NCBI RefSeq assembly: GCF_019649055.1
Contig: NW_026570543.1
Span: forward strand, 1-50,919
Source: Paramacrobiotus metropolitanus
Taxonomy: Eukaryota; Tardigrada; Eutardigrada; Parachela; Macrobiotidae
Direction: 5' to 3'
DNA length: 50,919 nt
Part shown: positions 1-38,401 of the stretch, one piece after another
How positions within the stretch are numbered: position 1 is the first letter of the stretch
Layout: each line of letters opens with the position of its first letter
Made by a program: the position numbers and the translations under genes
Notes under the pieces: generated by a model
What the model saw: only the letters and a program-made list of their open reading frames with translations
The model's database searches: none
Told to the model about the DNA's origin: nothing

Positions 1-2463
1 TACAGATGCATAGTTATCGCATATTGTATAATATGTAACGGAATAGCGCTATGTATACTCGCATGCATAACTGATATTTTGTGCTCCATGGCGTTGGATA
101 TACATTCACTCCAGCGTACATTAACTTTTAATACTGACATATTTTTAACCGTTAACGCCTAACTGCTTCAAACAGATTAAGCGTCTAATTTAAATGTTAC
201 GCAAAAATTATTCAGTGCCGAAAAAATAATACAATGCGCAAGCAAAACATATGCAATGAAAACCATGATGTTCTTGTGTATCTATCCTGTGCGAGAATTC
301 GGGATATTATAAACATTTCATTCTCGCTGTTCATACTCTGTTGCCTAGCAGAGTTGCAGCAACGATGGTTTGTTATTATTGCTTAGTTTTTTTTGCGGCT
401 AGCATTTCGGCATTTCCGTCTGATAAATTCCATGCGATATGCACATATGTACATGTAACGCCCGCATATTAATTAATACTATAATTAAAGATGCAACAGA
501 GATTTAGTTTTCACAACATACGAGTACTTTCCAACTGTTAATAAATGTGTTCATTATGTTTTCAAAGTAATCATGAATGCTACTCAATAACTGAGGCATC
601 ATCTTTTAATATATAATGCATCCACCATGAAATAAGCCCTCAAGCATCGACTGGGGACTTGTAATTTATTAAAGACAAAACCCATGACTTTTGATTCTAA
701 ATTCAATTGGTAATTTTAACAACCTTTCATGGTGAGAACCTTATGTTTGATTACTGATATCTGTTTTAAAACAACATCGATATACATAGGTAGACGCCAC
801 AGCTGAATTAAATAGATTTTGGTACTATCAGGTTTGTTGTGCATATTGAATACGGATAGCGATGCGACATTGATACCGATTTGCATTCTTTGTGTATTCT
901 GGTTTTATTGGACAATTGAGTTGATATTTGCGCGCAGCTTTCTTACAGACAGTTATTCTCACTAATGCTAAATAAGACTTAACTCGGGTGTTTGATTTTC
1001 TTATGAACGAAAGTATATTTCTTAGAATTGTTACTTATCAAACAAATAAGCGCGCTTCCCTGTTGTTCTGTATCCGTTGTTCTGCGGTTGTTCTAGCATT
1101 CGCTAAACAGGTAAATAGCCATAATCGTCGGCTTCGTTCGTCCATCATACAGATATGACCATGGATTACGGCTTACAAGGTTAATAAACTTCGCGCATTT
1201 CCGTTCGTCTGCGGTATTCCTGTTAAAATTACCTATTTTAGCCAAAAAATCTGCAGAAAAAAATTAATGCAAAATTTGCTGGGAAATACGAATACTTGCG
1301 CGATGACGGCAATTTTGGAAGGGATCTCCGTGCCACCGGGCTGAGCAAAGAATATCGGTGCAGTGTTCTCCCAATAGGTTGCAAAATATATGTTACAAAA
1401 CATGCTTTCTGCCATCATGGCTCTATGTGGGTTTTTCGTGGCTATGTCGTACTCACGGACACGGAGCACGCCCAAAACTGATGGAATGTAATTATGTACC
1501 ATGGAATACGCTGCCTCCTGCCAGATCTGAATAATTTTCGGTCTTACCTCCGCTTTAACTTTCTGGAAGCAGTAAAACACGAATTGCCTGCATAAAAGCG
1601 CAAACCACAGTTGCAACCGGCGCTAACGATTACCGAAAAAGTTTAGTACTAGCACCGTGCGTGACAGTAAAACCGTTGAAGTTTGCTTACTGCACGCGGG
1701 TAGGGAGAAATCAAATCCGTTGTCGCAGGTAACTGAGGTAATGGATTTTCCTGAAAGGCACGTAGAAGTGTAGTTGGCCACTGTCGCAGGCTTTATTCGC
1801 CGGAAAATATTGTTCGATCTTTGCTGTTGAATGTTGATGCAGTGTCAAATTGACCTAGGAGTTCGCCTTTTTTGGTATACGTCCGTGGGATGTACAACTG
1901 CGTATACGTTGGGAAGATGGACGGATGATTTATTGAGTTATTGTCCATTTCGCGATAAACTTTCTGGCCACAAATTGTATTTTGCGCAGAAGCAAACTGG
2001 CAGGGTCCAAGCTACGTTGTCCTTCCGACAGAACTTTAAGGCAAGGCAAATTCGTTGGGAAAATACCGATCGCTTATCTTTGATTGATAGGGTTATATTC
2101 GTACTTCTGGTATTCTCAAGTGGTTCGTGTACGGCCGAAGAAAGTAAACGTTGGCAAACCACAGAGGAAACATGTTTCAGTTGCAAACAGAAGTGACAAA
2201 GTACTTAGTATTTATCATTCACAGATGTACTGGTCAAAACCAGGACAGTTAGTTTAGCGACCGTGCATTTACGGTGCCGGCTATTAATAACAACGCTCCA
2301 CTCTGTAATGTCCGGCAAAAATCCCACACCGTAGTACGTTATCAACTAGCTGCGCTCGCAGAACGTCACAGAAAGATACTGATTAAACAACATCTGCTCA
2401 TTTGGATTTTCGGGTAATATCGTAATACAAACAATACATACAGTCCACGTTTTAATATAGCAC
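1..2463. other. AT-rich stretch with no recognised gene
   Basis: The only open frames are short and overlap on both strands (for example 1233-1616 minus and 1831-2196 plus). None shows a family motif, a convincing exon border or a composition unlike its surroundings. Two open stretches on opposite strands at 1938-2196 are mutual shadows. I see no RNA gene or ordered repeat here. Confidence 0.6.
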
Positions 2464-2517
2464 CAATCAGTTATGTCTAGGTGCCACTAATTAGGTGTCA
2501 CTAATTAGGTGCTACTA
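2464..2517. repeat. Short tandem repeat around CACTAATTAGGTG
   Basis: The motif CACTAATTAGGTG occurs twice and runs on into a degenerate third copy (GCTACT). The leader TCAGTTATGTCTAGGTGC and the first motif recur in the same orientation at 14218-14254. The two sites lie outside the two palindrome clusters of the 3-12.7 kb block, so they may belong to a dispersed repeat or to flanks duplicated together with it. Confidence 0.6.
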
Positions 2518-2518
2518 A

Positions 2519-2959
2519 ATCTCTATATAATAATCGCGTAAGCCTTAATCTTTGTTGAGTCCGTCAGCTCGACGCATTGATCAAACTGCCGTGACTATGT
2601 ATCATTCGATAGCCCTTAAAATGTAAATTAGCCATCACAAATCAGTTTTGAAGAAAAAAAGATAGGTCTGAAAGAAATCTTTCAAAACTTTAACATACAA
2701 GTCTATGGAAAAGCTAAGAACTCACCACTGCTAAACCGACCACCCCATCACTGTCTAAGCAGCACGGCTTTTTGACAGTCGCTGCAGCTGGATGGAACTG
2801 GGTTCCATATTTGATAATATTCCATTGTCTTATTGTATATTTTTCATCGAAATTTAGTTTTGACAAAGAAAATGCAACAAAGAAAGAAGGCAAAATCAGT
2901 AGTGGCGAGTTTTGTAGCACGTTTGTTTTATTTTTTTAAAGACAGTGCGGCCTTGTCTG
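2519..2959. repeat. Left copy of a diverged direct repeat (partner 13203-13445)
   Basis: Both copies begin with CTCTATATAATAATC and share the stretch starting GTAAGCCTTAATCTTTG, followed by a block containing TTTTTGACA, GCTGCAG and GATGGAACT. The left copy carries about 150 bp that the right copy lacks (roughly 2590-2735). On the minus strand the right copy has an open frame of 88 codons; in the left copy that frame is interrupted by a GTGAGT donor-like site near 2729. The repeat may be a duplicated exon of an unrecognised minus-strand gene. Orientation is the same in both copies, so these are not terminal inverted repeats. Confidence 0.6.
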
Positions 2960-3069
2960 GTCAATCTGTCCATATTGACATATTGACGAAGATTAAATGG
3001 GAGCTCGCCTATCATCTCGATTCTACTCCCTTTTTGCGCCGGTCGATATGTCAATATTGACGTATTGAC
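2960..3069. repeat. Left cluster of two 28-bp near-palindromes
   Basis: Two copies, 2960-2987 and 3042-3069, follow the plan GTCAATATGTCAAT plus its reverse complement, each with two or three mismatches. Their starts are 82 bp apart. The same palindrome occurs four times at 12445-12694. The left cluster ends 183 bp from the 3' end of the KDZ-like gene. Such iterated palindromes are typical of binding sites for dimeric proteins, for example a transposase or replication protein; that role is inference. Confidence 0.85.
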
Positions 3070-3593
3070 AAAAAATGACAGCAGATGTTTCCATATAAAG
3101 ACGTATTTATTTAACTGACGTCAGTATAGATGGACAATTTGACCGAGTAACAGGAGAAACTCAAGCAAATCGACAAATTAAAATACTGACTCGGTAGTAA
3201 ACATACATTACTCGATTACCGAGCGAACAACAATTAGCGCATCAAAGCCAGATTAAACTGTAGCGTTTCCTTCGTCGACACAAGATCCGTCATCCCAGGC
3301 ATAACTTCCGGTGGCCAAGTACTGATTTCGTCGATAAATCAGTCTGTTGACGTAGAACACTTGACGATTTCTTGGAATGTGATTTAGAACAGCCTCGAAC
3401 CGACGAAACCAAGAAAATCCTTGCTCGGCGGCACTGGTGTTACATTTTTGCAAGTTGGATGTTTCTCTTTGATTTGCCGTGGGTACACAGTACGGCATTC
3501 GGGACGAATGTGGTTGTTCAAGTGAAACTTGTCAATTACTTTAGCCACTTGCAGCCACATATTATCAAAGGTGGAGAAAACGGGAGCGGCTTT

Positions 3594-6135
3594 GCTTGGT
3601 AAAGAGTAAGATACTGTACCAGTAGCGGTGCATTACATTACTGTTATGGCCTAACTTGATAAACTCATTAAAATTAACATGTCGATATCGTCGTTGCATG
3701 TTTATTGCACTATACTAGCACCATGGTACAATAAAGTATTGTCACTGTTATTAAATTCATAAGACTGAACAATCTTTAATTGCATCATTATCGGTTTTCT
3801 GTATCGGTTTATTCGGTAAGGTAACTCTCGTACAGTACTTTAAAAAAATTACAACCATTTCAAAGTACTGCACATTACATTTAAAGAATACTGCAGTACT
3901 TTCCAGGTGTCTCAGTGCTCAATCGCATGTTTCGGCCTGTTCGGGGATGTTCGGCAAGGTCACATTGGTGCATCACTACTTTGGAAGTATTACAGTACTT
4001 TCAAAGTACTGTCCTACTTTCAAAGTACTGCAGTACTTTCAGGTGCCTCAGTGTAATCGCCTGTTTCGGCCTGTTCGGGGATGTTCGGGAAGGTCTTTGG
4101 TGCATCAGTACTTTGGAAGTATTACAGTACTTTCAAAGCGCATCTCACTCAAAGTACTGCAGTACTTTCCAGGTGCCTCAGTGCTCAATCGCCTGTTTCG
4201 GCCTATTCGGGATGTTCGGGAAGGTCACTTTGGTGCATCAGTACTGGAAGTATTACAGTGCTTTGAAGAGTTGGACGTGGGGGTAATACTTTCACCGTAC
4301 TGATGCACCAAAACCTTCGAGAACATTGAACAGGCCGAAACAGATGACTGGCGAGACACCTGGAATGTACTGTAGTGCTGAAATGAACAATGCTTTTGAT
4401 AGTGCTATAATACTGCCATAGTAATGATGCACCAAAGTGATTGAGACACCTGAAAGTACTGCGGTGCCGAATAAAACAAAGTGCTGCTACGCTTTGAAAA
4501 TACTATAATACTTTGCAGCTAAGTACTAGCTTTTAATGTTTACCATAAACAATCAGTTCGAGTTAGTACTGAATAAATGTGCGATTCATTGGTAGAGTTA
4601 ATCTTTGATAAAAAAACACACAATGAAACCAAATAGAAATACTGTAATTAAGGTAGACTTTTCTCGAGCTGATTGTACCTCGCTTACATTTTTCAGGTAT
4701 AGAACTACTTTCTACCTTAATTTTTTTGGAAAAGAATATGTTTTTAGTTGTAGTGTGGTGGTACTGGAAGATTATAATGTACTGCAGTACTTTTGTAGCA
4801 GGGGCAGTACGGCAAATGCCCCATATACTGTTCGCCTGTTTCGGGATGTTCGGCGGTGTTCGGAAGATCACCTTGAAAATGTATTGGTAGTACTGTATTA
4901 TATTATTTTGAAATAAATACTGCAATATCTGTAGTGCGTAAGTACTTACTGTAAAGTGCTTTCGCCATCGTTCACACCACAAATCGGTCGGTTGAGGTAA
5001 TTCCGACGGCTTTCAAGTTGACTTACAAGGCGCTGCTGCCGATTATACAGTATGCACCTTGGCCCAGTATTAATTTGTGTATAATACGCAGTGCAAGTAT
5101 GGCATTAGCAGTTATTTAGCACCACATTTGTTTTACAGTAGTACTGCTACCCGTAGTACTCATCGTTGTCTTACAACCCTTTTACTAACTCACGGTTTGT
5201 TGGTGTTGTTGCTGTTGTTGCATAAACATACAGCAACTCATACTCATCCTTTTACTAACACACAGTTTGTTAACTCATCGCGACGAAAATTGACTAAGCA
5301 CAAACTGTCTCCAAGCGACTGTTAAAGAAGCATGCGATATCAAAAACCATTATTGTCAGTAAAGTACTGACTAAGTTTTGTAATAGTTAGTATGGGCTTT
5401 ATGGTTGCATGAGTACTGTACTGCCCAATAATGCGCATTCTGGTTCAAATCAGTACTGTAGTTAACTATCAATCTATTAATAACAGTTTAATAAATACAC
5501 TAACTATCTAAGAAAAGCAGCATGTGAATCAGTATGACTGCAGTGCAAACAGTCTGTGTAATCACAAATAAAAAAAATTCGCTGAAAAACAGGAAATATA
5601 CTGTACAGAAATTTCTGTACTATGATACTGACCGAAGTTAATGGCGCCACTGTACTCTAAAATACTTAGTATGCTGCTGCCCCAAACCCCACGTGTACGA
5701 CTGCGGTTGAGTGTAAAACAATGGAAGTTATTGAACTAAGGCTTTAAATTTTAAATTGGTTTATGGGTCAGAGTTTTAGTAATGCAAAGTTATACCCTTA
5801 ATATGCCCCAGTGCTCGAACACGACGTGAATTTTCTCGATGTCGATAAACAACCTGAAAAAATTTAATGAAGCGTAAATACTTGTAAATGCAATTATGCA
5901 AGTACCAGTGGTGCACAAAAATATGAACCATAATGTTCATAAACATGCACCATAATATAAAGGGCATATATGGGCAGAGTAGCAAGCGGCGAAGGGTGAC
6001 GATAGATACTATACTCTGTACAATAACTGACAATTGTGAGGTAAGTAGTGGTCAGGTTCATGGTGCACAAAACATACGGTGCATGCACCAGTGGTGCATA
6101 AATATGCACCGTTGGTACGGATCTTTACTGGTGCC
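3594..6135. mobile_element. 2.5-kb TIR transposon inserted in the KDZ-like gene
   Basis: The flanks carry a direct duplication GCGGCTTT (3586-3593 and 6136-6143), 8 bp long. The two ends are imperfectly inverted: the left end contains GGTAAAGA, then GTACCA, then CGGTGCAT. Read inward on the minus strand, the right end contains AGTAAAGA, GTACCA and CGGTGCAT in the same order. Removing the element and one duplication copy rejoins the host reading frame from KIAQKP into LPFSPP. The interior has no transposase-like frame, so it looks non-autonomous. An 8-bp duplication fits hAT, KDZ/Zisupton and a few other superfamilies; I cannot choose between them. Confidence 0.75.
3812..4460. repeat. Foldback minisatellite built on AGTACT
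   Basis: Three tandem units of about 128-134 bp (3812-4290) each contain GGTGCATCA, CTTTGGAAGTATTACAGTAC, TTTCAAAGTACTGCAGTACT and CGCCTGTTTCGGCCTGTTCG. From about 4290 to 4460 the same words appear in inverse order and orientation (CAGTACGGTG..., TGATGCACCAAA, ACAGGCCGAAACAG, GAGACACCTGGAATGTACTG). The block can therefore fold into a long imperfect hairpin. A further diverged direct unit lies at about 4778-4870. It sits wholly inside the 3594-6135 element. Short open frames across it are a by-product of the period. Confidence 0.85.
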
Positions 6136-7936
6136 GCGGCTTTTGTGCAATTTTCAAACGATTTAGGTTGCACATGTTGTCGTAGACAACAAAAACATTT
6201 TCAAACTCCTCCTGTGGTATCTTTGAATTCTTGATGTGAGCCAATAGCGACGAAATAGCGATCAGAAATGTTTGAGAAGGTGATTCCGACCTGTACGATA
6301 CCATCATAATGTCACTTCCCTGAAACCGGTAAAGTAAATGGGATATAGCTGACCTATATATTGGTGACTGGGATCGTATCTGTCCGTAAGGGCTGTGTAC
6401 CACCAAGTATCCCCTCGAGCGTGGTGCAGAAACAACTTTATCTGAATTCTTCGTTTTATATTCCCCCAGGTTTTTTCGGCATGGTACCACTTCGTCTGCT
6501 GCGTTTGTTTCTTCCATCGGTTTGGATAGGTCTATTGCACCTAGTAATCCTTTGAGCTCTGAAAGATAGAGCACTGATTGTCTAAATTTATAGGCTACGC
6601 TACTACAAAATCTTTAGCAGTCTCACCAGGAATAGCGAAAGCGGTCTGAGCAAACGTAGCTGACAACGTTGCCTTTACTCCAGCAGGGCTTATTTTGCCA
6701 TGCTTTTTGCAGTAGATGGAACCAGGCTCGGGCTGGGCAGTGCAAACCGGAGGTAGAGACAAACTTGAGAACCCGCAATCATATTCTGCAATTCATAAAC
6801 TTCCTTAATTGTGTATAGTGGGAAATTTTAGAACAAAATACCTCTATTAAGGCTGCACAATGAAGAAACGAAATCATCCAGAAGCCGTCCATAATGAGAA
6901 AGTATTTGCACTTATACTCATCACAACGGGCGGTGTGGCAATGTGAAACCCCTCTGCCAATCGGCATGCCTCCAGATAAGGAAGTACCTCGTCAAAGCTG
7001 TTCGCTTGTTGGAATATCGTCTCAATTAAGCTACCTCTGTCGAAGCTCTTCTTCGACTTCATGCCGATAAAAAGCGGTTGACACCCATTTCCTGTCGAAA
7101 TCTAGAAAGATTTTGCTGTCATATGCCTTTCGTGCCCAAATAAAAAGGTGCAGCCAAATTTTTTAGTTACCTTTCTGTTCATAAGTGGCTTCCCATATAA
7201 GGGCAAACGATTCAAACGTGAACCGACCGCTAACCCTGTGAAAGACTTAAACTCAGTTCTCGTAAACCAATGATTGCTAAAGAAGAAAATAGATGTATGT
7301 ATTGCTTACATCGTTCTGACAATGTGCTCCATAAACGACGCGAAAAGTAGCAGTTGGGAGTAATTCGAAGGTACGGCCGACGATAAGGATAAAACTGATA
7401 CCCTCCTCGTAGATATGAACCATATCATATTCAAAATGGAACGGCATCCTCTGCACGTTTTCTGTATCACAACGACATTTCGTGAGGTGCCATCTGCTTC
7501 AAACACCGCGGCCTTTGTTGGCGGCTTATGAGTTGGGAACAAAAGTCGAGGAGCTCCTCGAACCGTTCCGATACTTGCACTTCAAAGGGCAATATTTCAT
7601 GGCTGGCGGGAGAAGAACAGGTGATTCACGCTCGTCATACTCAATGTCGCACAAAGGAAGATATTCCTCGAGAAGACGTTTAAGTCGCACTGGGTCTGTA
7701 GCCAGTTGATCGGAAGAAAGCATATGAATAGCCTAGAGAAGAATGAAAATGCGTTGGTGAACTAAGAGTGAATAAACAACTTCAGTAAATTCTTTCCAAA
7801 ATCAGCTTTTTACCTGGACCAATTCAGTGCGGCAGGAAGGTCGCTCTACAAACGGGACTTTCTTGTAACAGTCGCGGACAAATAAAAAGGCATCAATGCC
7901 AAACTTTGTTGCAAAGGTCAGTCGACTGTCTACCAT

Positions 7937-8476
7937 GTTTTCTCCTGGAAATCTAGTTTAGTAAATAAATATTTAATGAATAACTATCTTGGCTCATTTG
8001 TGGGACATCCGAATCAAAGTGATAAGGCATGTTTGATATCACAAAGCTTCTTACAGCTCAGGTAACTGCGAGTACACATCCTATTACTTTTATTTTACCA
8101 ATACGTGTTTGTTTGCAAGAAAATTTTAAATCGTTGATGAAAAGCGCTTGCTGGTCACTAATGCAGCACTATTAAATGCAGTGACGCATTAGCATTAGTA
8201 AACTCTGGTATCAGTAAATAAAAACCGCAATGGGCAAAAAATTGTACAACACTACTTGGAACGACCATTTTGCACGTTTACTTAGTAATCGCCGGGGCCG
8301 GATATAGTTCCGGTACTGTGCCGCTCTCATCGAAAGTTAACCGGACTCTTGTTTGTTGGAGCTGTTCAGTTTTCGCTTGCTAAACCAAGTGCACATTTGT
8401 TTTCTGGGTATTCTCCACTTTATCAGAAAAATAACTGTAAAAATATTGGTATTTTGGTGCTTCTTTTTCCTCAATC
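7937..8476. promoter_or_regulatory. Shared 540-bp divergent intergenic region
   Basis: This is the gap between the ATG of the minus-strand KDZ-like gene and the ATG of the plus-strand ATPase-like gene. A head-to-head arrangement with so short a gap suggests that one bidirectional promoter region serves both, which is inference. I see no clear TATA pair or repeated operator in it. Confidence 0.4.
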
Positions 8477-11400
8477 ATGAGTGATGTCGGCAAGTTGAAG
8501 CGCTTAGGAATGACGACGCGCAGAGCAGCCAAGCTATTACCGTTGGAGCCAGTTTCAGTGCTTCTTCCTTGCCGGTTTTAAAGCCTCGTGGAAGAAATGC
8601 AGCTAAGAAAAAAGGTCAAAGAAAGATGCCTCAAACAGTCCACCAGCCGCCGCTCCAGCAACTGTGGTAGAATCACTGGACAACATGCAGGATCCCGCGC
8701 GGACTGGCGTTGCTGACGTTTCTCTGGCAAACTCACATTGTCCTGACGAACAAGGTATCCAAGAGCACAATACAACCATGGACTTCCTTGCAGCTCGGGT
8801 AAAATACAGCTGCTTAATGCATTATGATTCACTGATACAATACAATTTTATGGTTTAACAGCGCGGTCGAAAACTGGCAGTTTCTGATGAGTCTTGCCTG
8901 CGGGCTGATGAATCTTCCGAAGAAACGGAATCGGTGCACCAGGTACGTTCAAACAAACTTCTCTAATGTTGAATTGCCGGTGATTGTACGTTTCACTTCT
9001 TTGTGCGTGCGCATAGTTAGCGTACCTGATGTATACTGTATGCTGCCGTAACTAGCATGTTGTTTCACTTTTTGTTCAGAAGTATAATTTTTAGCCAACA
9101 CGCTTCCGGTTTGAGGAAAATTCCGAAGATGTTAAGACATATTATGCTGGAAAATCCGCCGATGGTTCCAAAAAGTCCGTGTACTGCATGGGTATCCTCA
9201 GCATCCTATACCGAATTGTGGAGCACAGATTGGAAGCAGTTGACATTACCGCGGGGAACAGCAATCCGTCATCTGCAAACGCAAAGATCCCAAGCCGACT
9301 AGAGCCAACAACAGTGGCATACGCTGCGCGATGGGAATGGAAAGCTGGTTTGCGTAAAAAGAGCTGGTACGTTTTAATTAAGGAAGAATTTTCGAAAGTG
9401 GCATCGGTCAACTTTAATTTTTTCTTACATTGTATGGTAACCTTGCCACTCATTCTGATTTGTATGCTTTTGCAGTGAATTCCTTGTTCCCGCAGACAAG
9501 AAATTGGAAAAGGTTGCATACGAAAAGCCTTCAGCGACAATGGGAGATCAGTGTGAGACCATTTCTTTCATCTGGAAGGAGTTTAACGCGTGGAAAGAAT
9601 ACATCACGCTGAAACTTGATGCTATTGAACAGTAAGTGTGTTTCTCCTACGGATTATTTATAATAAAATGACGAAAATTATAAAGGCTTGACCACGATTG
9701 TAAGTATAGTAATATGGCTTACTGGACTTCATAAAATCTTTAGACGTATCGCCGAAGATGACACTCTTATCAAATTCCATTGGACTCACATCGGCATTCA
9801 GCGCGAAAACGTGGAGCAAACCAAGGAGGTGTACATCTTCAATTCCGAAACTGCGTTGGTCTGCAACGACAACTCCAGACGTTTCAAGAAAGTGACCTTA
9901 GAGGCAGCCGGATTTTACCCTATCTCAATGAAATCTGAGATGAAAACAGTGGCCCTTTTCAGCAGCAAGAACGCCGGCAAATTCTGCGACCAGATGCTTG
10001 AAAAGCTCGGCCCCGTTAACATGATCACATTTTTTGGATTAATTGGTATCACAGCGTAGCAGTAGCACCAGTCAACTCAATTTAGTTTGATTCATTGTAA
10101 ATACCAAATTTTTTTGTTTCAGGGCACACGAATATGGCTATGAAACCCAGGAACATAAGCCGTGCTGTTGGCCATAAAGTTTATACTCTAGTACTTGTTG
10201 GGAAGTCAAACACCGGGAAAACCATGATTGCTCAACTCGCAGCGGCGACGAAGGCAGTGACAGGAGCGTAGCAGAATCCTTCAACTACAATTCCATTTCC
10301 GTTCATGAATACTGCAAACGTTGTCAAGAGTGTACCATGCCTCTAGTTATCAACGATCCACCGAAGAAGCAGTACAAAGAATACATCGACCTCTCTGTTC
10401 ACATCTATGATGGGCTTCCGCGCAGCAACTCTATTGGCAACTTTATACCATCAGGGTCACCAATTATCTGCATGAACAGCGATTTTCTTGAGTGTTGCGC
10501 CAGCGAGGCAGAATCATGGTAAGTTACAGTTTTGGTGACTTGACTGCTTTAATGCACTGCCAAAAAATTACAGGAATCGGTATCGGTCGCGACTTGTTAT
10601 AATTGCCGTTGATGAACCTTTGAGTTTTCCGGACGAAACTACTGAGCCCATTCACAAAAGTGCAACCCGCTTGTCCTCGCACGTACCGGAACTACTTTAT
10701 TACGACTACGATGAGTTGAAACGGAATTTCGTGCGATATTCGGCCGAAGTAATGGATATGCTACCGAACTGCAAGTCAGACGACAGCCGTATTGCCAGAA
10801 ACCTGGGTTTGCACTACGCCCTGGCTGAGCATGTAAGTACAAGGCCGCCCAATCTGAAACTAATCTCCGGTTGATATTGTTAGCATATAAAAATTGCTTA
10901 AACAGGTATCGAGAATTCTGCTTCCCGGATTTGAGTTCAAGCAATTTACCGAAAAACATATGCGAGAAGTGGCTCTTCCCTCATTCCAGAAATACCAAAC
11001 TTCCAAAGGAATACGCACTTTGGAAATTTCCGCTTTAATCCCCTTGCGTCTGCCAAATGATTTCGCAAATTTCCTGGAACAGCTGCTGGAAACAGTGCTG
11101 CGATATCCCAGTGAAAAAGTAAGTCCAGAAAATCAGACGTCTTTATAACGTGCGTAGCCATTACGCATGTTCATTAATTTGTACGTTTCAATATTTCTAG
11201 TGGTTCGAATGGCTTCAGTTTCGGGTTTCGTATCAAAAACTGGATGCTGTGGCAATTTGGTCAACCGCGTTTTCTTCGTTGGACATTTTCCCATTTGCCC
11301 ATCGTAAAAAAGACATCGCCGATTTTTTGGCCAGCAACAGCGCTTACGGATGCGAGGGTCGCGTTGCATTTTCGATCCCAACAGAGACCGGAGGACGGCG

Positions 11401-12295
11401 ACAGAGAACTGAGCGCGTCATTGTGCTCTATTTCAAAGAGCTACCCGATGAACTAACTCAGAAACTTGTTGTTTTTGGTGCGTATTTTTAAATCTATCTC
11501 AACGAAAGTTTTCTTTTAAATCTACAGTATTCTAGCAACTTTATTTATTTCTTTAATTGCAGATCAGATTGCGCGGGCGACCAGTACGCGGAAGGGTGGG
11601 AAAACACTTGCTGAAGCTGCACTTTCTCGGCTGGCTGCTTCCAGCTCCCGCAACATTCAGGAGCAACAGAAAATGGTTTCACTGGATTTGGCGAAGTTTG
11701 GCAAGGCAGTCAAGAAACCAATAAGTTTGGTCGGACTGAAGAGGTCACTGCATCTTCGTCAGCTGCATCATCACCTAAGGAGTTTGAGTCTTCCAAAGAG
11801 CAAGCGGCATTCGAAACGTGGTATGATGCGCTTGGTAAACAAAATTCCAGCAGCCTTTAGTTGTCCAGAGGAGTTGATTCGAAGCCTCGCGCTAAGTTTT
11901 GGAAAAGCCAGACTGACAACGAAAGAAAGGTACAAAATTATATGAAAAAGAGTGCGACAATTGCACTTTATTCTATATTTTATTCTTAGGTTCTCTTGAA
12001 GCGTTCATTCGATTTAGTAGATGCAGTTCCGATGAAGGATCACCGGTAAGGTTTGCGTTTTTTATCGTGACTAACACAATATCATTTTCACATATTCACA
12101 TTTTACAGCAGACAAAGAAAAGCGGTTCCAGCACTACTGGATGAAACAATTGTTTGCCGCACTAGAATCCGCAAGTTGGCTGCCAAGACCAGCATAAATC
12201 GACTCAGCCAAGACGCCGCTAACCACTGCTCTTTGTTTGCATTGTTCGTTAATGAGACGCGTTTGTGCTTAAAAACACAATTTCAGAACGTGTAA
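8477..12295 (+). CDS. 12-exon P-loop ATPase-like protein of unknown family, frame-broken
   Basis: Exons that join in phase are 8477-8798, 8862-8942, 9095-9366, 9476-9631, 9744-10045, 10123-10518, 10574-10832, 10906-11118, 11201-11477, 11563-11929, 11990-12045 and 12119-12295. The N-terminal exon is Ser/Lys-rich and low in complexity. A Walker A motif, LVGKSNTGKT, lies at 10199-10230. A Walker B-like LVINDPP lies at about 10343, a sensor-like SPIICMNSDF at about 10455, and an Arg-rich RYRSRLVII at about 10578; together these suggest an AAA+/SF3-type ATPase core followed by a long helical tail. Frame jumps occur in exon 1 (twice), after Walker A (10231-10275) and near 11715, and there is an in-frame TAG near 11860. 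I do not recognise the family. Its place next to a transposase-like gene, inside matching palindrome clusters, suggests a mobile-element helicase or ATPase. A decayed host gene is the alternative. Confidence 0.6.
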
Positions 12296-12444
12296 TGGCA
12301 AATTATTAGAATGCTGTTTTAAACTTACTAGGTGCTATAATTTATCATTGCCATCGATGTTTGTTCACAATTAGTAACAGGAGACGGAAAAAATTACGCA
12401 GTTTGCTAACGGTCACGTTTTAATGCCGTGCTAAATCAGAAACT

Positions 12445-12694
12445 GTCAATATGTCAATATTGACATATTGACCTGATGCTTTACCGGTCGGGTTTAGCTG
12501 TGACGTTTCTCAACTTTTGTCAATATGTCAATACTGACATATTGACGGGATTCTACCAGTCCCAGCTGGGTTGCAACATCCCAAGTTTTGTCAATATGTC
12601 AATACTGACAAATTGACACCAAATTAGGTACTCTTAATTATCTTATACTCGGCCTGACTCAAGCAAAGAATACTGTCAATATTGACAAATTGAC
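12445..12694. repeat. Right cluster of four palindromes
   Basis: The first copy (12445-12472) is a perfect 28-bp palindrome: GTCAATATGTCAAT followed by its exact reverse complement. Copies at 12519-12546 and 12590-12617 have one or two changes, and a shortened 20-bp copy lies at 12675-12694. The starts are 74, 71 and 85 bp apart, about seven to eight helical turns. The cluster begins 150 bp beyond the stop of the ATPase-like gene and matches the left cluster at 2960-3069. Confidence 0.9.
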
Positions 12695-15568
12695 ACGGTA
12701 CCGGTAAACTCAAGCGATACGGTGCACGACTTGCTACGAAAGTCACCACTGAGTCTAAGTGAAACAATCTTGCTACAATACTCGCCAAGCCTCGGCAAAA
12801 TGGCCGCGAAGATTCTGCGACTGTGGGATGGTTCCAAGTCTGATTTTAATAACGTACCTGACCCCGCATTGGTTTATTTAGTTCTCGCTCAACTACCATG
12901 TAAGTGCCTTCCCGGGTGGGCGCGATTGCCTTACTTGCAGAACTGCTTGCGATTTAAGGCGCTGCGTTTTCGTTTTCAGTAATGAGGGTGTTCGAGGTCA
13001 AACGGGGCAACTTAAGGTATATTCAAGATTTGCTTCGAAGAACAGCAAGCTTTTTGCTTGGCATGTTACGTGGTGTCTGGATTAAAGAACTGCTCAGGCC
13101 TGATACACATTAATGCAAATCCAGCTTTCTGCACAAGCAAAATCATGTTCGGTTTAAAACGGGTGGGGTGGAATTGGATGTGGGTGGAAGCTCGCTTTCG
13201 CTATCTCTATATAATAATCAGGTAAGCCTTAATCTTTGTTGAGCCCTTCAGCTCGACGCACTGAACATAGGTTCCCCACTGTCTGAAAGCTAACACCTTT
13301 TTGACAATTCCGCTGCAGTTAGATGGAACTTTGCGTTCCATGAAATTTTGCCCGTCAGCTGTACTTGCTGTTTGGACATTTCTCACGAAAATTTGGTACT
13401 TGAAAAAGAAACTAAAACTGGACAAACATGGCCGAGAAGATTCTGCGACTGGGACAAAGGTACCAAAGGACACAGTTGACGATAATATTCTGTGGAAAAT
13501 TTCTCCTTCCCTTAATTTAACTGACTACACAGGTGATATAAGACCTGAAATGCAAACATTTTCCCTCGAAAGCCGACAAATGCTCATCAGCTTTCGACCT
13601 ATTTCTTTAATTCCGGATCAGTCACTAATCAGTTAAAATTCGTGCAGTTGGTGCATAGAGACTGTGTAATTTATTTTTTGGAAGAACTTGATTCTACCTT
13701 CCTGTTTTTTATACTCTCCGGTCTTTCAAGCTGCAAGCTAATTAACAACAGTTTAATAACTCTAAATCCCAGTTTGACCACAACACCACTGCTGCCCTTT
13801 AAAATGCGCCGAGGCCTGTTCCCTTTATATCCCAGTTTAGCAATCAGTATAGATGTACTAATATAGAAGTACACCATTTCTTCTACTGTAAACTGCTAGG
13901 ATATGTGCAGCAACAGATCCGGGAATAAAGCAATGCATCGGAACCTAATGAGAAAATTCACCGCTTTCGGGAGAAACATTTCGTGTTTCAGGTCTAAGTT
14001 TACTTTTGCAGCCAAGGTGCAGTAAGGTACATCAAAGAATCCTATGTTCGGTTCATGAAACGTGTACTATTTAATTAGCAGAGCTGCAGTCATGATATTT
14101 AATTTTATCACTTAATTATCCGTCGTATGATGATTTATCACTTATTATGATTTATCCGTCGTATTATTTATTCCGCGCAATTTGCGCGGGTCAATAGTGT
14201 TTGAATACAGCACACAGTCAGTTATGTCTAGGTGCCACTAATTAGGTGCTACTGAAGTTTGAAACTTTGAATGCAGTACCTTTTTTGCACAATTTTTATT
14301 GGTTGTGATCACAGCCAATCATCGCGATGTTCCCGCACTGGTGAGGAACGCGTCATTTGGTAGTAGAGCGAGTCCCTTCTTTACCGTCGGCGTACAGTGC
14401 ACTAACTGCTGATTTGTCGTGGAATGGCAGCCGCCATAGTCGTCCCTTCGCGTCACCAGCTTGCAGGAGTTTGCAGTGTGCCAACAAGGAAATAATCCCT
14501 TTCTGCGAAATTTCGCTACAAGTAGTTATTCCATATGTGAGTTCCGGATTTTCCCCCTGTCTTCATGCCGAACGCCACTTGTCTACATGTCAACCACCCG
14601 AGGCTACGGTGAAACGTGCTGCAGTCTGAACGGACCATCGTAACGCTGCTTTGCATTAAACTTCAGCGTTGTCCGCTTTGCATGGTGGTTTTCTATGGGC
14701 GGACGCCTGCGACAGGAGCAAATCGTTGTGTGCGGATATTAGCATTTAGCAGCGGAATTGTTTTCTTCACTGTACCGTTACAATCTTACGAAGTACCTTC
14801 CATGGCATCATTGCGCCGTTGGCAAGTTGTGTCTTAGAGCTCCATCGGCAACCATGTTTGTGTACAAGCCCGTGACGTCAATGGGCGACAACAACAACTT
14901 GCCATAACGGCCGTGTCGTGAACGTTGCCGGCAATGGGCTCACATGATTACATTGCCCTATTGTGCCGCGACCGTCGCCGCGAAATTATCTTTCCACCGT
15001 CCGTCCTATCCGTGCAGCCGAAACATGCAGACTACAGAGTCCAGATCGAGAGCCAGAAAAATTAGATTAGCTGGATGAATGCCTATCCTTGTGACATGTC
15101 GACTGCTTATCGATTCCGGCGGTGCGAAATGAAGTCCTAATCTCAAACTGATATACATGTACATACATAGTAATTCTGGTTCTTTTCAATACTTGCATAT
15201 TCTGCATTTGCGAGGTAGACCTCTTAGCCCAGTTTAATTTTGATATACTTCTTCTATTGAAACGTATCTTTGACCAGCTTAACATGACAGTAGAGTACAG
15301 AACTATGAAGTTTGCTTGAATCTGAGAACGGTTATTTGTGTGAGCAACTACCTTCTTAAATGCAATTATCTGGAATTCGAAGTTTGTTTAGCCACCCCGG
15401 TGAAACATTTACTCAGACAAAATTTAAGAGAAAAAAAGCGTCAGGAATCTGTCAAAACATAAGCGGGCCGCAAACCTGAGAAATCCACAAGACAAAACAC
15501 TCGAGCATGCACTCCATTAACAAATCATTTACTGCATGATATCAATCAGTACAAGGCACACCGGATCC
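12695..15568. repeat. Repeat-bearing non-coding region with copies of the left flank
   Basis: 13203-13445 is the right copy of the direct repeat at 2519-2959. A shared word GAAGATTCTGCGACTG occurs at about 12810 and again at about 13436. 14218-14254 repeats the TCAGTTATGTCTAGGTGC motif seen at 2464. Open frames at 14357-14837 (plus) have no recognisable motif or exon borders. Nothing else could be assigned. Confidence 0.5.
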
Positions 15569-18345
15569 TCAAAGGTCACAGCGCAATGCCAGCGCAATGC
15601 GGGATAGTTTCTCAAAGCGCCGATGCTGTCGTCCTTCCGTGCACCACTTCCTGTCGCGGCAATGCGAGGAGGAACGTTGATCGCGGTCTGTATCGTGGAT
15701 AACAGCTACCGAAGAAAAGAGCGCTTGAAGAAATAAGACCTTGTAGTTTCCTAATGATTTACTGACAATTTCCACTTCAGAACATTCAACAGATTTGCTT
15801 ACTCTGCAGACTGCTCTGCGATACAGCTCCTGATTCGCGTCCGCAGCGACCGTCGTCAACCACCCCGAAAGCAAACGTATCTCGTCCTCCCTTCCACCGC
15901 ATCCCACACCGTGGACGCCAATCACACCACATCCCTACCCAGCGACAGACGCGTCTTGACCAAGTCAACGCACAACTGCACATATGTACAAGTGTACAAC
16001 CGACGATCGCCCCGACGCCACAGCAGCTCCTCCAGATCGTAGTCCAGGCGCACACGGCACCGTCCCAGATGGATGTCAGCACACGGCAGATCGCGACTGG
16101 CTGCGAACAGAGTAGGGAGGTGGCGCGGCAACAGGCGGCAGCCCGGCGACACTCCAGTCGAAGAGCCAGTGCACCTCGCAGAAATAACCGGCAATGGAGA
16201 TGGATTCGAAAACTTCCTTACGCCGACCAGATACAGCGCCGTCAGGAAGATCCTAGGAGGACTCACGCCAGACAGTGAAGGAAATCCAACCCCCATCTAT
16301 AAACGTCTCTTCTCGAAGCACTGGCCTCGATCGTGAATGATAACATATTGGGTGAAGGGAGGCAGGCAGCTGAAGAGGGCACCGTGAGGATGTATTCCAG
16401 GTCAGGCAAGTCTCGACTGGCAGCGTCCGTCTCGATGATAACGTTGCTTGTCAAAGTAGGTGACACAAGCACAGCTTTCCATGCCGGGCATACCGCGCAT
16501 CTTGGTTTTGCGTCAGCGTATCACGACAGGCAAGCACTTCCTGCCACTTATCCACTCCAGCACACGGTTCATCCCCCGTCCCGGGTGCAAGTAATCGTAG
16601 GAGCCTCCACTGCGCAAGATCCTCGGAAGACGATCCATCAGGGCCACGATAAAACCTTTAACAATTTTCTGTATCAGTCAGCATGTGATTTGCCTTAACG
16701 ATTTGCCAGATACCCATGAAAAGAAACGGGCACTAACGATCACTGTGAAATGTGGTTAGGTAACCATTGCCTGGTTATCGTACCTGAGCCTTGTCTTCGC
16801 CTTCCGCAGAAGAAACCCTATGCCACCGTGCAGGTCCACAATGAAATGCAACTGTTCATCCGTGACATCGAGAATGATTGGAGACCCGTCGCTGGTTAGC
16901 CTGCATCCTCCTGATAGAGCCCTGCACGAGCCGAGCCGCTCGGCTCGGCTCACAACGCTCGGCGCTCGCGAGCACCTCGAGCGAGCAGGCGTCGTTTTGC
17001 GAATTTGCAGACGAGCTGAGCAATAGAAAAAAAATTACGAACAGAGCCGAGCGAGCAGGATGGTCGGTGCGAGCAATCATGAGCCTACAGGCTGACATTG
17101 TGCGAACTGGAGAAGTTTCTAGTACTAAATTACAATGACCGACCTGAAAACGATCTTAAACCACCGTCACCTTCGCGCTTCGCGCGAGTGATTTAATACC
17201 AACTTTTCTAGACCGGTTGGGACTCGGACTAACTTTTGATATTTTGTACTCGTAGCCAACAAAAACATTATTTGACGGGTTTATAGACCAGTTGAATGCT
17301 TCTAAGAAAGGCGCATTTTAATTTTCGAGCATGCATTCTATTATACGTATTTATTTCAGGCTGGATTACGAAAACTACATCCAGTTGAAAATTAGAAATG
17401 TATTAGCGAAAAAATGGAAAACTGTGATGAAATGGACTACCAGTATGGAGATATAAGTGATTGTCTCTGAACATCAATTACACTTACTGAGTTTTGTGTT
17501 GGTGAAAAGTTTGGTATAATTAATTCGTGCAAAATGTTGATACGTAAATTTTGCCGATCTCTGAGCGAGCCGATTTGCAAATAAAATTACGAGCGAGTTG
17601 ACGAGTCCAAAGAAAAATTGAAAACAGGCGAGTTGAGCGGCGGTTTGGCGCAGCGAGCTGAGCGAAACAGAAGTTAAAAAAGCAGAAACGAGCGAGTTGA
17701 ACGGCACTTTGCTGCTCGTGCAGAACTCTACCTCCTGAGCATTTGCGGCAGCTGTGCCACCAGCGCCGCACAACACCAGCCGACAACGGCACACTGCGCT
17801 TGATGAAGCGTCCCAGTCAACCGATACTCACCATGTGCGCCAGATCCGATAACGTAGATTCCTGCGCAAACTGATGCGTCCACCCGTTGGCTGACACGCG
17901 GTAACGACGGCGGTGCGTGGGGACAAAACCCGACCAAGTGGCGCCACTGTGCTCCAGCCCTGGACGACAGCCACTGTGGAGTGCCCCGACCAATACGATG
18001 AGCTGGGTGCCGGATTCAGCATGGTCCCGGGCCATCAGCGCCACGACCCACCGGGATACTCCCGGCGAAGCACTTCGATGGGGATGGTCTCCCATGACAG
18101 GCCGCCCACGCATATTCCCAGTCCTCGAACTGTATGGGCTTGGTTAGGGAAGGTACGGTGGAATGGAATGAGTTCGGGTCGACGATCTGGGACAGCAGAT
18201 CGATGCACCCTGTCCGCCACATCCACCACACAGCCGTACAGTAGGATCCTACGTACCTTCCACCACTACGCTGATGCCACGGGTCCGAGCCACAAACGTG
18301 ACTGACGACGAAACTGTGCCACCGTCCATACGCGCAACGATACAA
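15569..18345 (-). pseudogene. GC-rich decayed coding region, possibly kelch-like
   Basis: The segment is clearly richer in GC than its neighbours and carries long open stretches on the minus strand, with donor-like ends after LAHM (GTGAGT, about 17834) and after KAKTRLR (about 16783). Pieces in different frames resemble kelch-repeat language: GLGICVGGLSWETIPIEVLR (about 18120), SRWVVALMARDH (about 18055), and ASVCAGIYVIGSGAHG (about 17860). They are out of frame with one another, as in the other broken genes of this window. It is split by the hAT-type insertion at 16915-17730. The kelch reading is weak. Plus-strand frames over the same bases are equally long but motif-free. Confidence 0.3.
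16915..17730. mobile_element. 816-bp non-autonomous hAT-type element
   Basis: The element is flanked by a perfect 8-bp duplication CCTCCTGA (16907-16914 and 17731-17738). Its ends are inverted: the left begins TAGAGCCCTGCACGAGC and the right, read inward on the minus strand, begins TAGAGTTCTGCACGAGC, with two differences in 17 bp. Next to each end are many GAGCGAG/GAGCCGAG-type words, including a short perfect stem GAGCCGAGC-CGCTCGGCTC near 16927. No transposase frame is present. The 8-bp duplication and the TIR length match the hAT superfamily; transposition would need an enzyme supplied from elsewhere. Confidence 0.85.
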
Positions 18346-34202: not shown

Positions 34203-35147
34203 CTACTTAGCGAAGGCTTGTCTCATGGATTCCGCCATGTGAAGGTTAAATTGCTGCCGCTTTTCGAAGTCGGTATCCGTATATGCGTGGACGCAGTCGC
34301 TTCTCCAGTTCCCTTGGCATTTCAGTAGTGCTGTTGGAACATCCATGGTCGCGGCATAGGTTGCGGCGCCGCGGCGAAACGAATGAGTGGAAATGGCATG
34401 GGTGGGATAGCCGGCTGATTGAATTGCTGTTCGTAGTAATTGGTTGAATCTAAAAGCATATAAGGGTTTTACGCAGGCCCCAACCCGGTAACTGAACAGT
34501 GCATCTGTCGGTTTGGCCTTGGAGGCGGCCACCATTGACCGAAGTGCTGCTACCGGACATAAGGGATTAACGGTTAGCCGTGGTAAGGGAATCTCGACCT
34601 TACTTTTCTTAAACCGATTAGTTTTAAGTACGGCAAGTTGCAATGTAGCACCAGTATCGGTGAACTGGATGTCTTTCACACGCAGATGCTTGTTGCTGAG
34701 TGATTTAAAAAGGCATGAACTGCGAGCAAGGGAGAAGAACGCTGTAAGGCATGCCGCCCAAAACGTCTTCCTGTATCTGCTCGGTACGGCATGCAGGTTA
34801 TTTTTAATTATTATTAAATCCGTGGGTAAGATAGGGCGCCGTTTATGTGGGCGCTCTTGGCATTGGCGTTTCACGCCTGCAAGTGCTAGCTTAACCTTGT
34901 AGTGAGAAAGGTTTGGGCCGGCATATCCCCGATAATGATGGAATGAAGTTAAGGATGAGACATAACTAAGGATAGTATTATATTCTAAGTCTTTGCTGAG
35001 GTAAGCTATATAAAGGCTAACAGTGTGCTCCGTTGCTGGACACGCCCGCAATCGAAACGAATGACAGAACGTTTCAAACCGTGCCCACTGGGTTTCCCTG
35101 GTTTTCCAGGAAGATTTCGCCATAGCTGAAAGCTGCAAATTCCTCAA
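34203..35147 (-). CDS. Tyrosine recombinase of the retrotransposon
   Basis: The enzyme would integrate the circular DNA copy by site-specific strand exchange through a covalent phosphotyrosine. The frame has 314 codons. The in-frame ATG at residue 9 (MAKSSWKT, 35123) is a likely alternative start. The SAM-like N-terminal region covers about residues 10-100. Catalytic signatures are Arg142 in SLARSS, a Lys near 175 in LKTNRFKK, His255-x-x-Arg258 in THSFRRGAAT, Trp281 in GNWRSD, and the candidate nucleophile Tyr289 in HAYTDTD. All six positions of a working recombinase appear present. The frame overlaps the end of the RT frame by 74 bp in another register. Confidence 0.92.
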   Translation of the reverse strand: MRNLQLSAMAKSSWKTRETQWARFETFCHSFRLRACPATEHTVSLYIAYLSKDLEYNTILSYVSSLTSFHHYRGYAGPNLSHYKVKLALAGVKRQCQERPHKRRPILPTDLIIIKNNLHAVPSRYRKTFWAACLTAFFSLARSSCLFKSLSNKHLRVKDIQFTDTGATLQLAVLKTNRFKKSKVEIPLPRLTVNPLCPVAALRSMVAASKAKPTDALFSYRVGACVKPLYAFRFNQLLRTAIQSAGYPTHAISTHSFRRGAATYAATMDVPTALLKCQGNWRSDCVHAYTDTDFEKRQQFNLHMAESMRQAFAK

Positions 35148-36963
35148 TTTCCTTTCCAGTTTGTGTGTTAGGGTAACTAAAACGAAAATTGTTCGGTAAT
35201 TTATCGCCTGGAAAAGGCCTTTGCCAATCGCTTAGAAATTTATTGGTGTATGATTCACTCTGGGATAACCGACTCAATGAGTCAGCTAGCACGTTGGTCA
35301 CACCGGCTGCATGTATTGCTTGCCAGCGGAAGTTATGCCGAATGCTGCATTTAAGTACAGCTTTCAGCCATTTCAGCGCTTCTAAATTTTTGGTTGTACC
35401 ACGATTTAAGAAGGCGACCGTCTGAGTGTTATCAGATTGAACAATGACTTTCTGGTTGGCCAACTGCTCGGCAAAAATTAGTAGTGGTAGGCATGACGCG
35501 ATTAATTCTAAAAAATTAATATTGCGTTTAAGCTGTGCACTGACCACTGGCGTTGGCACCCAGTTGGAGTGAAACCCGGCTGGTGCCTTGACTGAGACAT
35601 CCCAGCGACCTGCTATCCAGGTACCGGCGTAAACTGCGCCAAATCCTTGAAAGGATGCATCGGTTGCGATATAAGCAACACTGCGAGGCTGGCTCATGGG
35701 TGTAGAAATAATGCCATTCAGTGAGCCGGCAAAAGTTTTCCACCACTCCAGTTCGCTTAACATTAACTGACTTACTCGGACACGATGAGTGGAAAGTTTT
35801 AGTTTTGACAAAATATCAATAAAAATGCGCGTGAAAGTCCTGGCTCCGTAGATCACTTTAGACGCAAATGACATGTGTCCAGTAATAATTTGGAGTTCCT
35901 TCTTGGTAACTTTATTACGCGCAGAAATTGTGTCGCATAATTTGAAAAGCGAAATTAGTTTCTCTACAGGTAATTCTAACCGGCCCAGCAATGAATCGAC
36001 CACGATACCAAGAAAGGTCACTCGTTGCGCGGGGCCTATTATTTTATCCCATTTTACCATGAAACCCAGAGAACATAAAAGAGAAATTAATTCGTTTTGG
36101 GCGCATAAGCAAATTTCATAAGTTTCCCCAATTACTATAAAATCGTCTAAATAAGCGACGATAGCGAATTTACGGCGCCGCATCATGCGGCAGATGGCCG
36201 TTGAAATTTTATGAAAAATTGATGGAGCGTTTGAAAGCCCAAAACAAAGAAAGTTATCTACATAAAAACTCTCCGATTCGTTTGGGAACTGCCAGCGGAA
36301 ACCTTGGAGTTGACGATGCTCCGGTTTGACTGGAACCCAGCGGTATGCAGACTTGATGTCTATCACCGCGTAAAAACAACCAGAACTGCTTAGCCTAATT
36401 ACATCTTCGAGAGACTGAAATGAGAATGCTTCGGCATCAATAAAGGAGTTAACGCTGCAGTGAAGAGGGCGACTGCAATCTGTGATAGGGCGCAAGGCTG
36501 TGCTGCCTTTCTTTGAAACCGCACCGATGGCATTAATTCGCAACGGTTTATGACTTTGTTTTGATAGTCTACCCGTTGCCAATTCTTCGGAGAAAAGACG
36601 GTCTAGAAAGGGTTTTGCCTCAGGAGATAGGGCGCTCTTGTAATTTGTACAGTCCGCCGGCGGCACTGAGTGAATATCCGGCACGAGAGAGAAACCCTGA
36701 GCGAGTCCAGTTAGCAAAAATAGGCTATCTGGGTGGTCTACTTCAAGCTCTCTTGACCAGTTTTCAATGCTGCGAGTAAGAGAGGAGCGCAAAATCAGAT
36801 CGGCGTCAAGAGATAGAGAAACGTTATCAAAAACAACATAATTAGGCGCAGGTGTTTGCGGTGAGGCTTTAGTGTGAACCGTTCCCGCGGTTTCGCTGAT
36901 TGCCGGCAGTGCAACTGCTTGCTGGGTGGCCTTCGCTGCCACAGTGCCCACAGATATGTGCAA
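35074..36963 (-). CDS. Reverse transcriptase-RNase H polyprotein
   Basis: The 629-codon frame copies element RNA to DNA and degrades the RNA strand. RT motifs are LRPITDCSRPL (about residue 158), motif A YAVIDIKSAYRWVPV with Asp202, motif B GLSNAPSIFHK (about 242), and motif C AYLDDFIVIG with Asp273-Asp274. RNase H follows: ATDAS with Asp434, FLELIA with Glu487, QSDNTQTVAFLNRG with Asp511, and ADSLSR with Asp561. No protease or integrase domain is seen, as expected for this order. The first ATG lies inside the gag frame (95-bp overlap, different register), so translation probably needs frameshifting, reinitiation or a spliced message. No methyltransferase domain follows RNase H. Confidence 0.95.
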   Translation of the reverse strand: MHISVGTVAAKATQQAVALPAISETAGTVHTKASPQTPAPNYVVFDNVSLSLDADLILRSSLTRSIENWSRELEVDHPDSLFLLTGLAQGFSLVPDIHSVPPADCTNYKSALSPEAKPFLDRLFSEELATGRLSKQSHKPLRINAIGAVSKKGSTALRPITDCSRPLHCSVNSFIDAEAFSFQSLEDVIRLSSSGCFYAVIDIKSAYRWVPVKPEHRQLQGFRWQFPNESESFYVDNFLCFGLSNAPSIFHKISTAICRMMRRRKFAIVAYLDDFIVIGETYEICLCAQNELISLLCSLGFMVKWDKIIGPAQRVTFLGIVVDSLLGRLELPVEKLISLFKLCDTISARNKVTKKELQIITGHMSFASKVIYGARTFTRIFIDILSKLKLSTHRVRVSQLMLSELEWWKTFAGSLNGIISTPMSQPRSVAYIATDASFQGFGAVYAGTWIAGRWDVSVKAPAGFHSNWVPTPVVSAQLKRNINFLELIASCLPLLIFAEQLANQKVIVQSDNTQTVAFLNRGTTKNLEALKWLKAVLKCSIRHNFRWQAIHAAGVTNVLADSLSRLSQSESYTNKFLSDWQRPFPGDKLPNNFRFSYPNTQTGKEIEEFAAFSYGEIFLENQGNPVGTV

Positions 36964-38095: not shown

Positions 38096-38401
38096 GGCGA
38101 TATTAATCAACCAAAATAAAAACAAATGCAAGCAAAAAGTAACTGTACTGTGTAAGCAAAAGCTTATGACAGTGCTTCAAAATTTATATCAATTCAACTA
38201 ATTGATGAAACCAAAAACTTATCTGTCTCTAACCATCTATAAGATAGTACAAGAGAACGATAATAGGAGTTATTCAAAAAGTTGTACGGAGAACGGGAAA
38301 ACGTTAAAGGTCACACAGTGCGTACACTGCACTAACAAGATCACAAATATAACGCTGCGGAATCAAAGTGTCCGTGGACTATTTGATTGTGGCAGCAGTT
38401 C

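Follow-up and report, generated by a model that had tools for sequence, protein, structure and literature searches.

What kind of entity is formed by a transposase-like gene and an ATPase gene that point away from each other between two clusters of one and the same palindrome? This question is raised by a stretch of 50,919 nucleotides (the window) of contig NW_026570543.1 from the tardigrade Paramacrobiotus metropolitanus, and it was addressed by searches of the whole assembly (169.8 Mb, 533 contigs). A first interpretation made from the letters of the window (the sequence-only reading) had proposed a possible new kind of mobile element, for which neither ends nor target duplication had been found. 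The locus is a mobile element present in several copies in the genome, and its two genes are divergently paired. It is probably a cut-and-paste DNA transposon of the KDZ superfamily, in which the divergent transposase would be assisted by a dedicated ATPase partly resembling superfamily 3 (SF3) helicases, the palindromes being putative sites for an element-encoded protein.

Ends of the element and target site duplication

Comparison of the outer flanks of the palindrome arrays between loci (contigs are designated below by C and a number) uncovered imperfect terminal inverted repeats (TIRs), so that the ends and the duplication reported as missing do exist. The whole transposon, hereafter element A, spans positions 2897..12793 (9897 bp, including a nested insertion). 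Its left TIR, CAGTAGTGGCGAGTTTTGTAGCA, is located at 2897..2919 on the plus strand and its right TIR, GAGGCTTGGCGAGTATTGTAGCA, at 12771..12793 on the minus strand, the inner motif of the latter being present again ~40 bp further in, and a perfect 8-bp target site duplication (TSD), GGCAAAAT, flanks the element at 2889..2896 and 12794..12801. The conserved stretch of the TIRs is GGCGAGTWTTG, plus the inner motif. The first 18 bases of the left TIR are found without mismatch at C8, C132, C84 and C525 and with one mismatch at C19:623761; at 2 mismatches, 33 matches were obtained vs 12 for the reversed control, so many of them are chance. The first 18 bases of the right TIR are exact at C58, C19:247586, C13 (twice), C131, C525 (twice) and C84, and up to 2 mismatches gave 15 matches vs 4 for the reversed control. 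One further TIR match, at C5:517663, was dropped as likely chance because it is accompanied by another inner motif and has no palindrome.

Element A has a counterpart of 7362 bp at C84, with the identical TSD (GGCAAAAT). C84 matches positions 1-18000 of the window at 97.7-98.7%, with two interruptions, one of ~2.5 kb and a smaller one (16914-17731); it is most simply regarded as the other haplotype of the window locus. The window copy, which is decayed, is longer mainly because of a ~2.5-kb nested insertion (approximately 3594..6135), which is absent from the C84 copy, sits inside the transposase coding region and is flanked by the 8-bp GCGGCTTT at 3586-3593 and 6136-6143. This insertion, in which internal repeats recur at ~130-bp spacing, probably belongs to another family of DNA transposons and is non-autonomous.

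Palindrome arrays just inside both ends

The arrays lie just inside both ends of the element. Each 28-bp palindrome is built from four GTCAAT-type hexamers, two direct facing two inverted. The left array contains sites at 2960..2987 and 3042..3069, and the right array sites at 12445..12472 (perfect), 12519..12546 and 12590..12617, followed at 12674..12694 by an incomplete site with three of the four hexamers. The count of two left-hand and four right-hand palindromes proposed initially holds for five complete sites (0 to 2 mismatches each), the fourth right-hand one being incomplete. The proposed layout of divergent genes bracketed by palindromes was confirmed by the sites, the open reading frames (ORFs) and the genome search. 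The half-site GTCAATATGTCAAT has 11 matches in the window (up to 2 mismatches) vs 0.59 expected, a number reached by none of 100 shuffles.

In the whole assembly, the palindromes are nearly confined to the element and its sister family, described below. With up to 3 mismatches, the 28-bp palindrome occurs at 21 places vs 0 for the reversed control, all of which fall in four loci and in a second copy of three of these loci. A generalised four-hexamer pattern matched 52 places at the same tolerance vs 12 in the reversed control; at up to 2 mismatches, it matched 41 sites, 40 of which are located in elements of both families or their haplotype copies, single-ended ones included. The lone outside site, C32:928580, is a palindrome for which the 4 kb examined contained no TIR. 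A genome-wide scatter of the palindrome, which the sequence-only reading had named as an outcome that would contradict it, was not observed. Array size in elements A, C and E varies from 2 to 6 sites per end, with a spacing of 71 to 123 bp; in the right array of E, one of six sites is complete and the remaining ones have three hexamers, as do both palindrome-like sites of C525.

Other copies and empty sites

Six facing end pairs (A, C, E, F, G and C525) were examined in the genome and a perfect 8-bp TSD was found in five of them. Besides A, these are element C (C19:621 kb, 2686 bp, TSD CCAATGTC), element E (C58:65 kb, 65304-69368, 4065 bp, TSD TTATTCCC), element F (C19:248 kb, 7079 bp, TSD ATTGTTTT) and element G (C131:99 kb, 98592-107864, 9273 bp including a nested insertion, TSD TATGCCGG). 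At B (C8/C132), D (C73/C249), C13, C58:764 kb and C75, one end was seen; B and D having a single end in the examined DNA, no TSD was assigned to them. C8/C132 and C73/C249 look like haplotype pairs (98.5% over 23 kb and 97.7% over 8 kb, respectively).

Empty sites were sought by joining the flanks of an element with one duplication copy removed. Element F sits in a dispersed repeat, and 36 of 40 scored matches (from 84 candidates) to its joined flanks cross the junction; of the remaining four, two are the flanks of F itself and two are partial. In the case of E, the junction is crossed by a single paralogous match (74%, partial, ~35 kb away). Together with the TIRs and the TSDs, these matches bear out the mobile-element status first suggested by the layout of the locus.

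Two side observations concern these copies. E is inserted in a reading frame resembling, by eye, the start of a secreted trypsin-like gene, which agrees with the animal genome assumed in the sequence-only reading. The C131 ends, 9.3 kb apart, were considered as a full-length copy, which was rejected, the interior being mostly nested insertion with no ATPase or KDZ match; this locus is a small family-2 element (98592-107864) containing a nested insertion of ~8.4 kb, which has tandem repeats and inverted ends of 120 bp.

Divergent pairing of the two genes across the genome

Searches with the A and F transposase proteins led, after merging, to at least 53 KDZ loci, and those with ATPase proteins to at least 35 merged loci (window and C84 included). 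Twenty-three of the 35 ATPase loci are located within 12 kb of a KDZ locus, vs 0.27 expected from random uniform placement (binomial P about 1.6e-40), the 12-kb limit having been chosen after the list was seen and the nearest excluded same-contig case lying at ~77 kb (C121). All 23 pairs are divergent. Both copies of the window locus are counted among these pairs, as other haplotype pairs may be, so that independent insertions are fewer than 23. Leaving out the window, C84 and C420, a query locus picked for reading because it is near a KDZ match, the proportion is 20 of 32. Neither gene is single-copy, which the sequence-only reading had named as a further contradicting outcome, and the co-occurrence in one layout, for which it had suggested a check, is found in multiple copies.

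The KDZ-like transposase gene

The transposase gene occupies approximately 3256..7980 (outer limits) on the minus strand and is composed of several exons, interrupted by the nested insertion; exon ORFs are found at 3256-3605 and 6131-6562, with more further upstream. The joined exons of the C84 copy matched the Pfam KDZ family (PF18758) with E 1.0e-4 and 22.6 bits, for a gathering score of 26.6, and the transposase of element F, put together from pieces, gave E 1.4e-4 and ~22 bits, also under the gathering score. This weak match supports the initial designation of the gene as KDZ-like. Conserved-looking YDNMC, NNHIRPEC and AEQ stretches were noticed by eye in A. With the A transposase as query, a set of 5.8 billion proteins yielded 240 candidates, none of them passing.

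The P-loop ATPase gene

The ATPase gene lies on the plus strand at 8600..12230 (outer limits approximate, best supported about 9098-11476) and also has several exons. Its Walker A motif reads GKSNTGKT, and the exon that encodes this P-loop carries a frameshift in the window and is open in C84; the C84 copy shows frame breaks at other places. In an alignment of 373 columns, 46% of the residues are identical between the A and E proteins. Over 277 codons from six hand-picked matching stretches, a choice which favours conserved parts, the proportion of synonymous differences (pS) is 0.75, i.e., saturated, vs 0.31 for nonsynonymous ones (pN), and this difference points to purifying selection on the ATPase across deep divergence.

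The number of ATPase loci depended on the query. The A protein recovered only A, the C84 copy and C58; with the E protein, C24 was recovered as well, together with a weak match at C420 (E 0.06), ~3 kb from an opposite-strand KDZ match. The C420 locus was read as a diverged ATPase and, as a query, gave 44 matches at E up to 0.1, which identifies the few loci found with the first query as a sensitivity limit. The NTGK core of Walker A is the same in all three proteins (A, E and C420), as is a Y-x-G stretch.

Two families with co-changing motifs

The copies fall into two families. In family 1 (A, B, C, D and C525), the inner TIR motif is TAGCA, with a one-base variant in D, and the hexamers are of GTCAAT type; in family 2 (E, F, G, C58:764 kb, C75 and C13), the inner motif is GGCCCA and the hexamers are GTCATT. 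The outer TIR is nearly identical between families. The right-type TIR motif is repeated ~40 bp inward in A, C, E and F, with the inner motif of the family or a variant of it. As hexamer and inner TIR motif change and the outer TIR stays, this pattern fits two sequence-specific element proteins. In family 2, the gene pair appears flipped relative to the ends and is still divergent, as judged from the ATPase only in E and from the transposase only in F.

Other features of the window

Outside the element, a 65-bp direct repeat (91%) starting with ATCTCTATATAATAATC is present at 2519-2583 and 13203-13267, and a short GC-rich hairpin near 14170. These repeats, which resemble Helitron 5' ends, were examined as possible borders of the element and discarded, since they lie outside the TIRs and their TSDs. 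Further along, a retrotransposon (34203-38131, minus strand) encodes a reverse transcriptase (RVT_1, E 2e-16) and, in a further ORF, a tyrosine recombinase (Phage_integrase, E 1e-5, just under the cut-off), and has an upstream ORF with no Pfam match, zinc-knuckle-like by eye; it presumably resembles a DIRS/Ngaro-type element.

Proposed mechanism and alternative explanations

In the mechanism that we propose, the transposase would recognize the terminal repeat (GGCGAGTWTTG and the inner motif, a second copy of which is present at the right end) and cut. The ATPase, probably as an oligomer, would sit on the arrays of four-hexamer palindromes inside both ends, where it would license the transposase or help to assemble the transpososome, pairing or remodelling the ends in much the way that IstB, TnsC and MuB assist bacterial transposases. 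Whether the palindromes are read by the ATPase is, in our estimate, evenly poised; the transposase is a possible reader in which we place less than even confidence, and a host factor an improbable one.

The main competing explanation is that the palindromes are subterminal repeats bound by the KDZ transposase, the ATPase being a passenger or an anti-silencing accessory comparable to TET/JBP. Accessory genes are indeed reported in KDZ elements in the available part of a recent study (PMC12730594), 30 of the 53 KDZ loci show no ATPase within 12 kb, and the F transposase has a weak match (E 0.028) to zf-C3Hc3H, which could correspond to a DNA-binding part. A passenger, however, is expected neither to stay divergent in 23 of 23 pairs nor to be under apparent purifying selection across deep divergence, and we regard this explanation as rather unlikely. 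Alternatively, the palindromes could be origin-like and unwound by the ATPase acting as an SF3 helicase, the element being copied replicatively before or during its movement. The partly SF3-like order of motifs and the two direct hexamers facing two inverted ones, reminiscent of polyomavirus origins, speak for such a process. Yet arrays are present at both ends, with 2 to 6 sites each in A, C and E, which suits the recognition of ends more than the use of one origin; cut-and-paste transposition ordinarily yields 8-bp TSDs and deletion derivatives; and motif C does not align, helicase activity being only putative. Replicative copying is a live but unlikely rival. Finally, taken alone, the window could suggest unrelated neighbours or domesticated host genes with palindromes arisen by chance, both genes being multi-exon and host-like. 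This view is contradicted by the TIRs, the TSDs, the empty-site matches, 23 divergent pairs where 0.27 would be expected and palindromes almost confined to the copies, and it is hardly credible.

Several observations count against a KDZ transposon assisted by its own ATPase. The sixth facing end pair has no matching duplication: C525 (2168-3001) contains three family-1 ends in opposed orientations, with differing flanks around the facing pair (2168-2436) and TGTGTCCT, inverted, outside both the left-type end of this pair and the third end. From the differing flanks and the position of the inverted TGTGTCCT, this small copy is interpreted as rearranged. Many of the empty-site alignments of F are longer than the query by up to ~30 bp, corresponding to small length differences whose position was not mapped. 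Both genes are found within a two-ended copy only in A and its C84 counterpart, E having an ATPase fragment and F transposase remnants, and the coding remnants of A, C84, E and F all show some decay. Ends and palindromes were read in families 1 and 2 only. In addition to the KDZ loci noted above, 12 of the 35 ATPase loci have no detected partner within 12 kb; the unpaired KDZ loci may mean that the ATPase is dispensable, or that it was missed by the searches. The assignment of any protein to the palindromes is also indirect.

The affiliation of the ATPase itself calls for similar caution. SF3 helicases are defined by motifs A, B, B' and C in order and with short spacing. A Walker-B-like Asp is aligned in A and C420 and missing in E, and a motif-C-like Asn is separated from a preceding I-C by one residue in A and by three in C420 and falls in no common column, so that SF3 membership is suggested by motifs only, and incomplete ones. 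The earlier description of the protein as AAA+/SF3-like stands at this motif level only. No match to the ATPase exceeded the threshold in any of Pfam, NCBIfam, PHROGs, PDB sequences and the 5.8-billion-protein set. The best SF3-family profile match was Parvo_NS1 (E 0.083), none being significant in any library searched; in comparison with IstB, TnsC and TniB, TniB reached E 0.04, under the cut-off, and IstB was not among the matches listed. In the large protein set, residues 60-480 of the A protein returned 2999 candidates and the C420 protein 1292, none passing, the PDB sequence searches returned two chance-level matches each, and an ATPase profile found 171 pattern stretches in viral contigs and 136 in bacterial/archaeal contigs, none confirmed. 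Except for Pfam and PDB, the collections searched consist mostly of prokaryotic or viral sequences, and this null result accordingly says little about eukaryotes.

Relation to known systems

Element A resembles KDZ elements in its transposase, whose match to PF18758 is weak, and has TIRs and 8-bp TSDs as in Zisupton and Dileera elements. In the available part of PMC12730594, 8-bp TSDs are given for Zisupton and one Dileera element, two Kyakuja families have 7-bp TSDs and no TIRs, and fungal KDZ elements carry TET/JBP accessory genes. The transposase of element A is multi-exon, as is that of nematode Zisupton in the portion of PMC9297572 consulted. Element A differs from described KDZ elements by its second, divergent ATPase gene. 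The word ATPase is absent from the available text of PMC12730594 and PMC9297572, in which palindromes were not looked for, and no KDZ transposon with an ATPase was met in the literature at the level of titles and abstracts, a scope outside which the founding Zisupton and KDZ papers fall. Rather than the possible new kind of mobile element of the sequence-only reading, it is better described as a novel variant, with two components, of the KDZ superfamily.

Other two-component systems offer partial parallels. Two-protein transposons are known in eukaryotes, including En/Spm (TNPA/TNPD), PIF/Harbinger and MuDR, and TNPA of En/Spm binds arrays of short subterminal repeats. Like element A, these transposons encode a second protein; these second proteins are not known to be ATPases, and the superfamilies of the transposases are different ones. 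Among small DNA viruses, the SF3 helicases show an approximately similar order of motifs and their origins four short motifs facing each other. They differ in that no significant sequence match was found, that the ATPase of the element is tied to a transposase and that its putative sites are located at transposon ends. Several bacterial transposons depend on a dedicated ATPase and, in IS21, the two genes are in tandem. To our knowledge, no eukaryotic cut-and-paste transposon depends on an ATPase, although some have a second, non-ATPase protein. KolobokP, as presented in the part of PMC9587614 available, associates a DDD/E transposase with a His-Me finger nuclease; it is likewise a DNA transposon of eukaryotes that encodes a second enzyme, but its transposase is of another superfamily and its second enzyme is a nuclease and not an ATPase. 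IS21 encodes the IstA transposase and the IstB AAA+ ATPase (PMC11208146, available part). As far as this source goes, IS21, Tn7 (TnsC) and Mu (MuB) likewise combine a transposase with their own ATPase, with a likely similar regulatory logic; in contrast, no sequence match to the ATPase of the element was above threshold, and element A has palindromic arrays and divergent genes.

By analogy, the element may be a counterpart of the bacterial transposons that need an ATPase to move. We tentatively propose, as a possibility short of an even chance, a KDZ lineage with a putatively obligate SF3-like ATPase acting on quadripartite palindromes at both ends, which would have evolved apart from Tn7, Mu and IS21 and whose specificities for palindrome and TIR would co-evolve with its two proteins. 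The ATPase family has no recognized relatives in the libraries searched, and the TIR motif and palindrome that change together provide a direct handle on which protein reads which site. If the proposal is true, this KDZ lineage would represent ATPase-assisted transposition in eukaryotes, with a gene pair kept through deep divergence in one layout.

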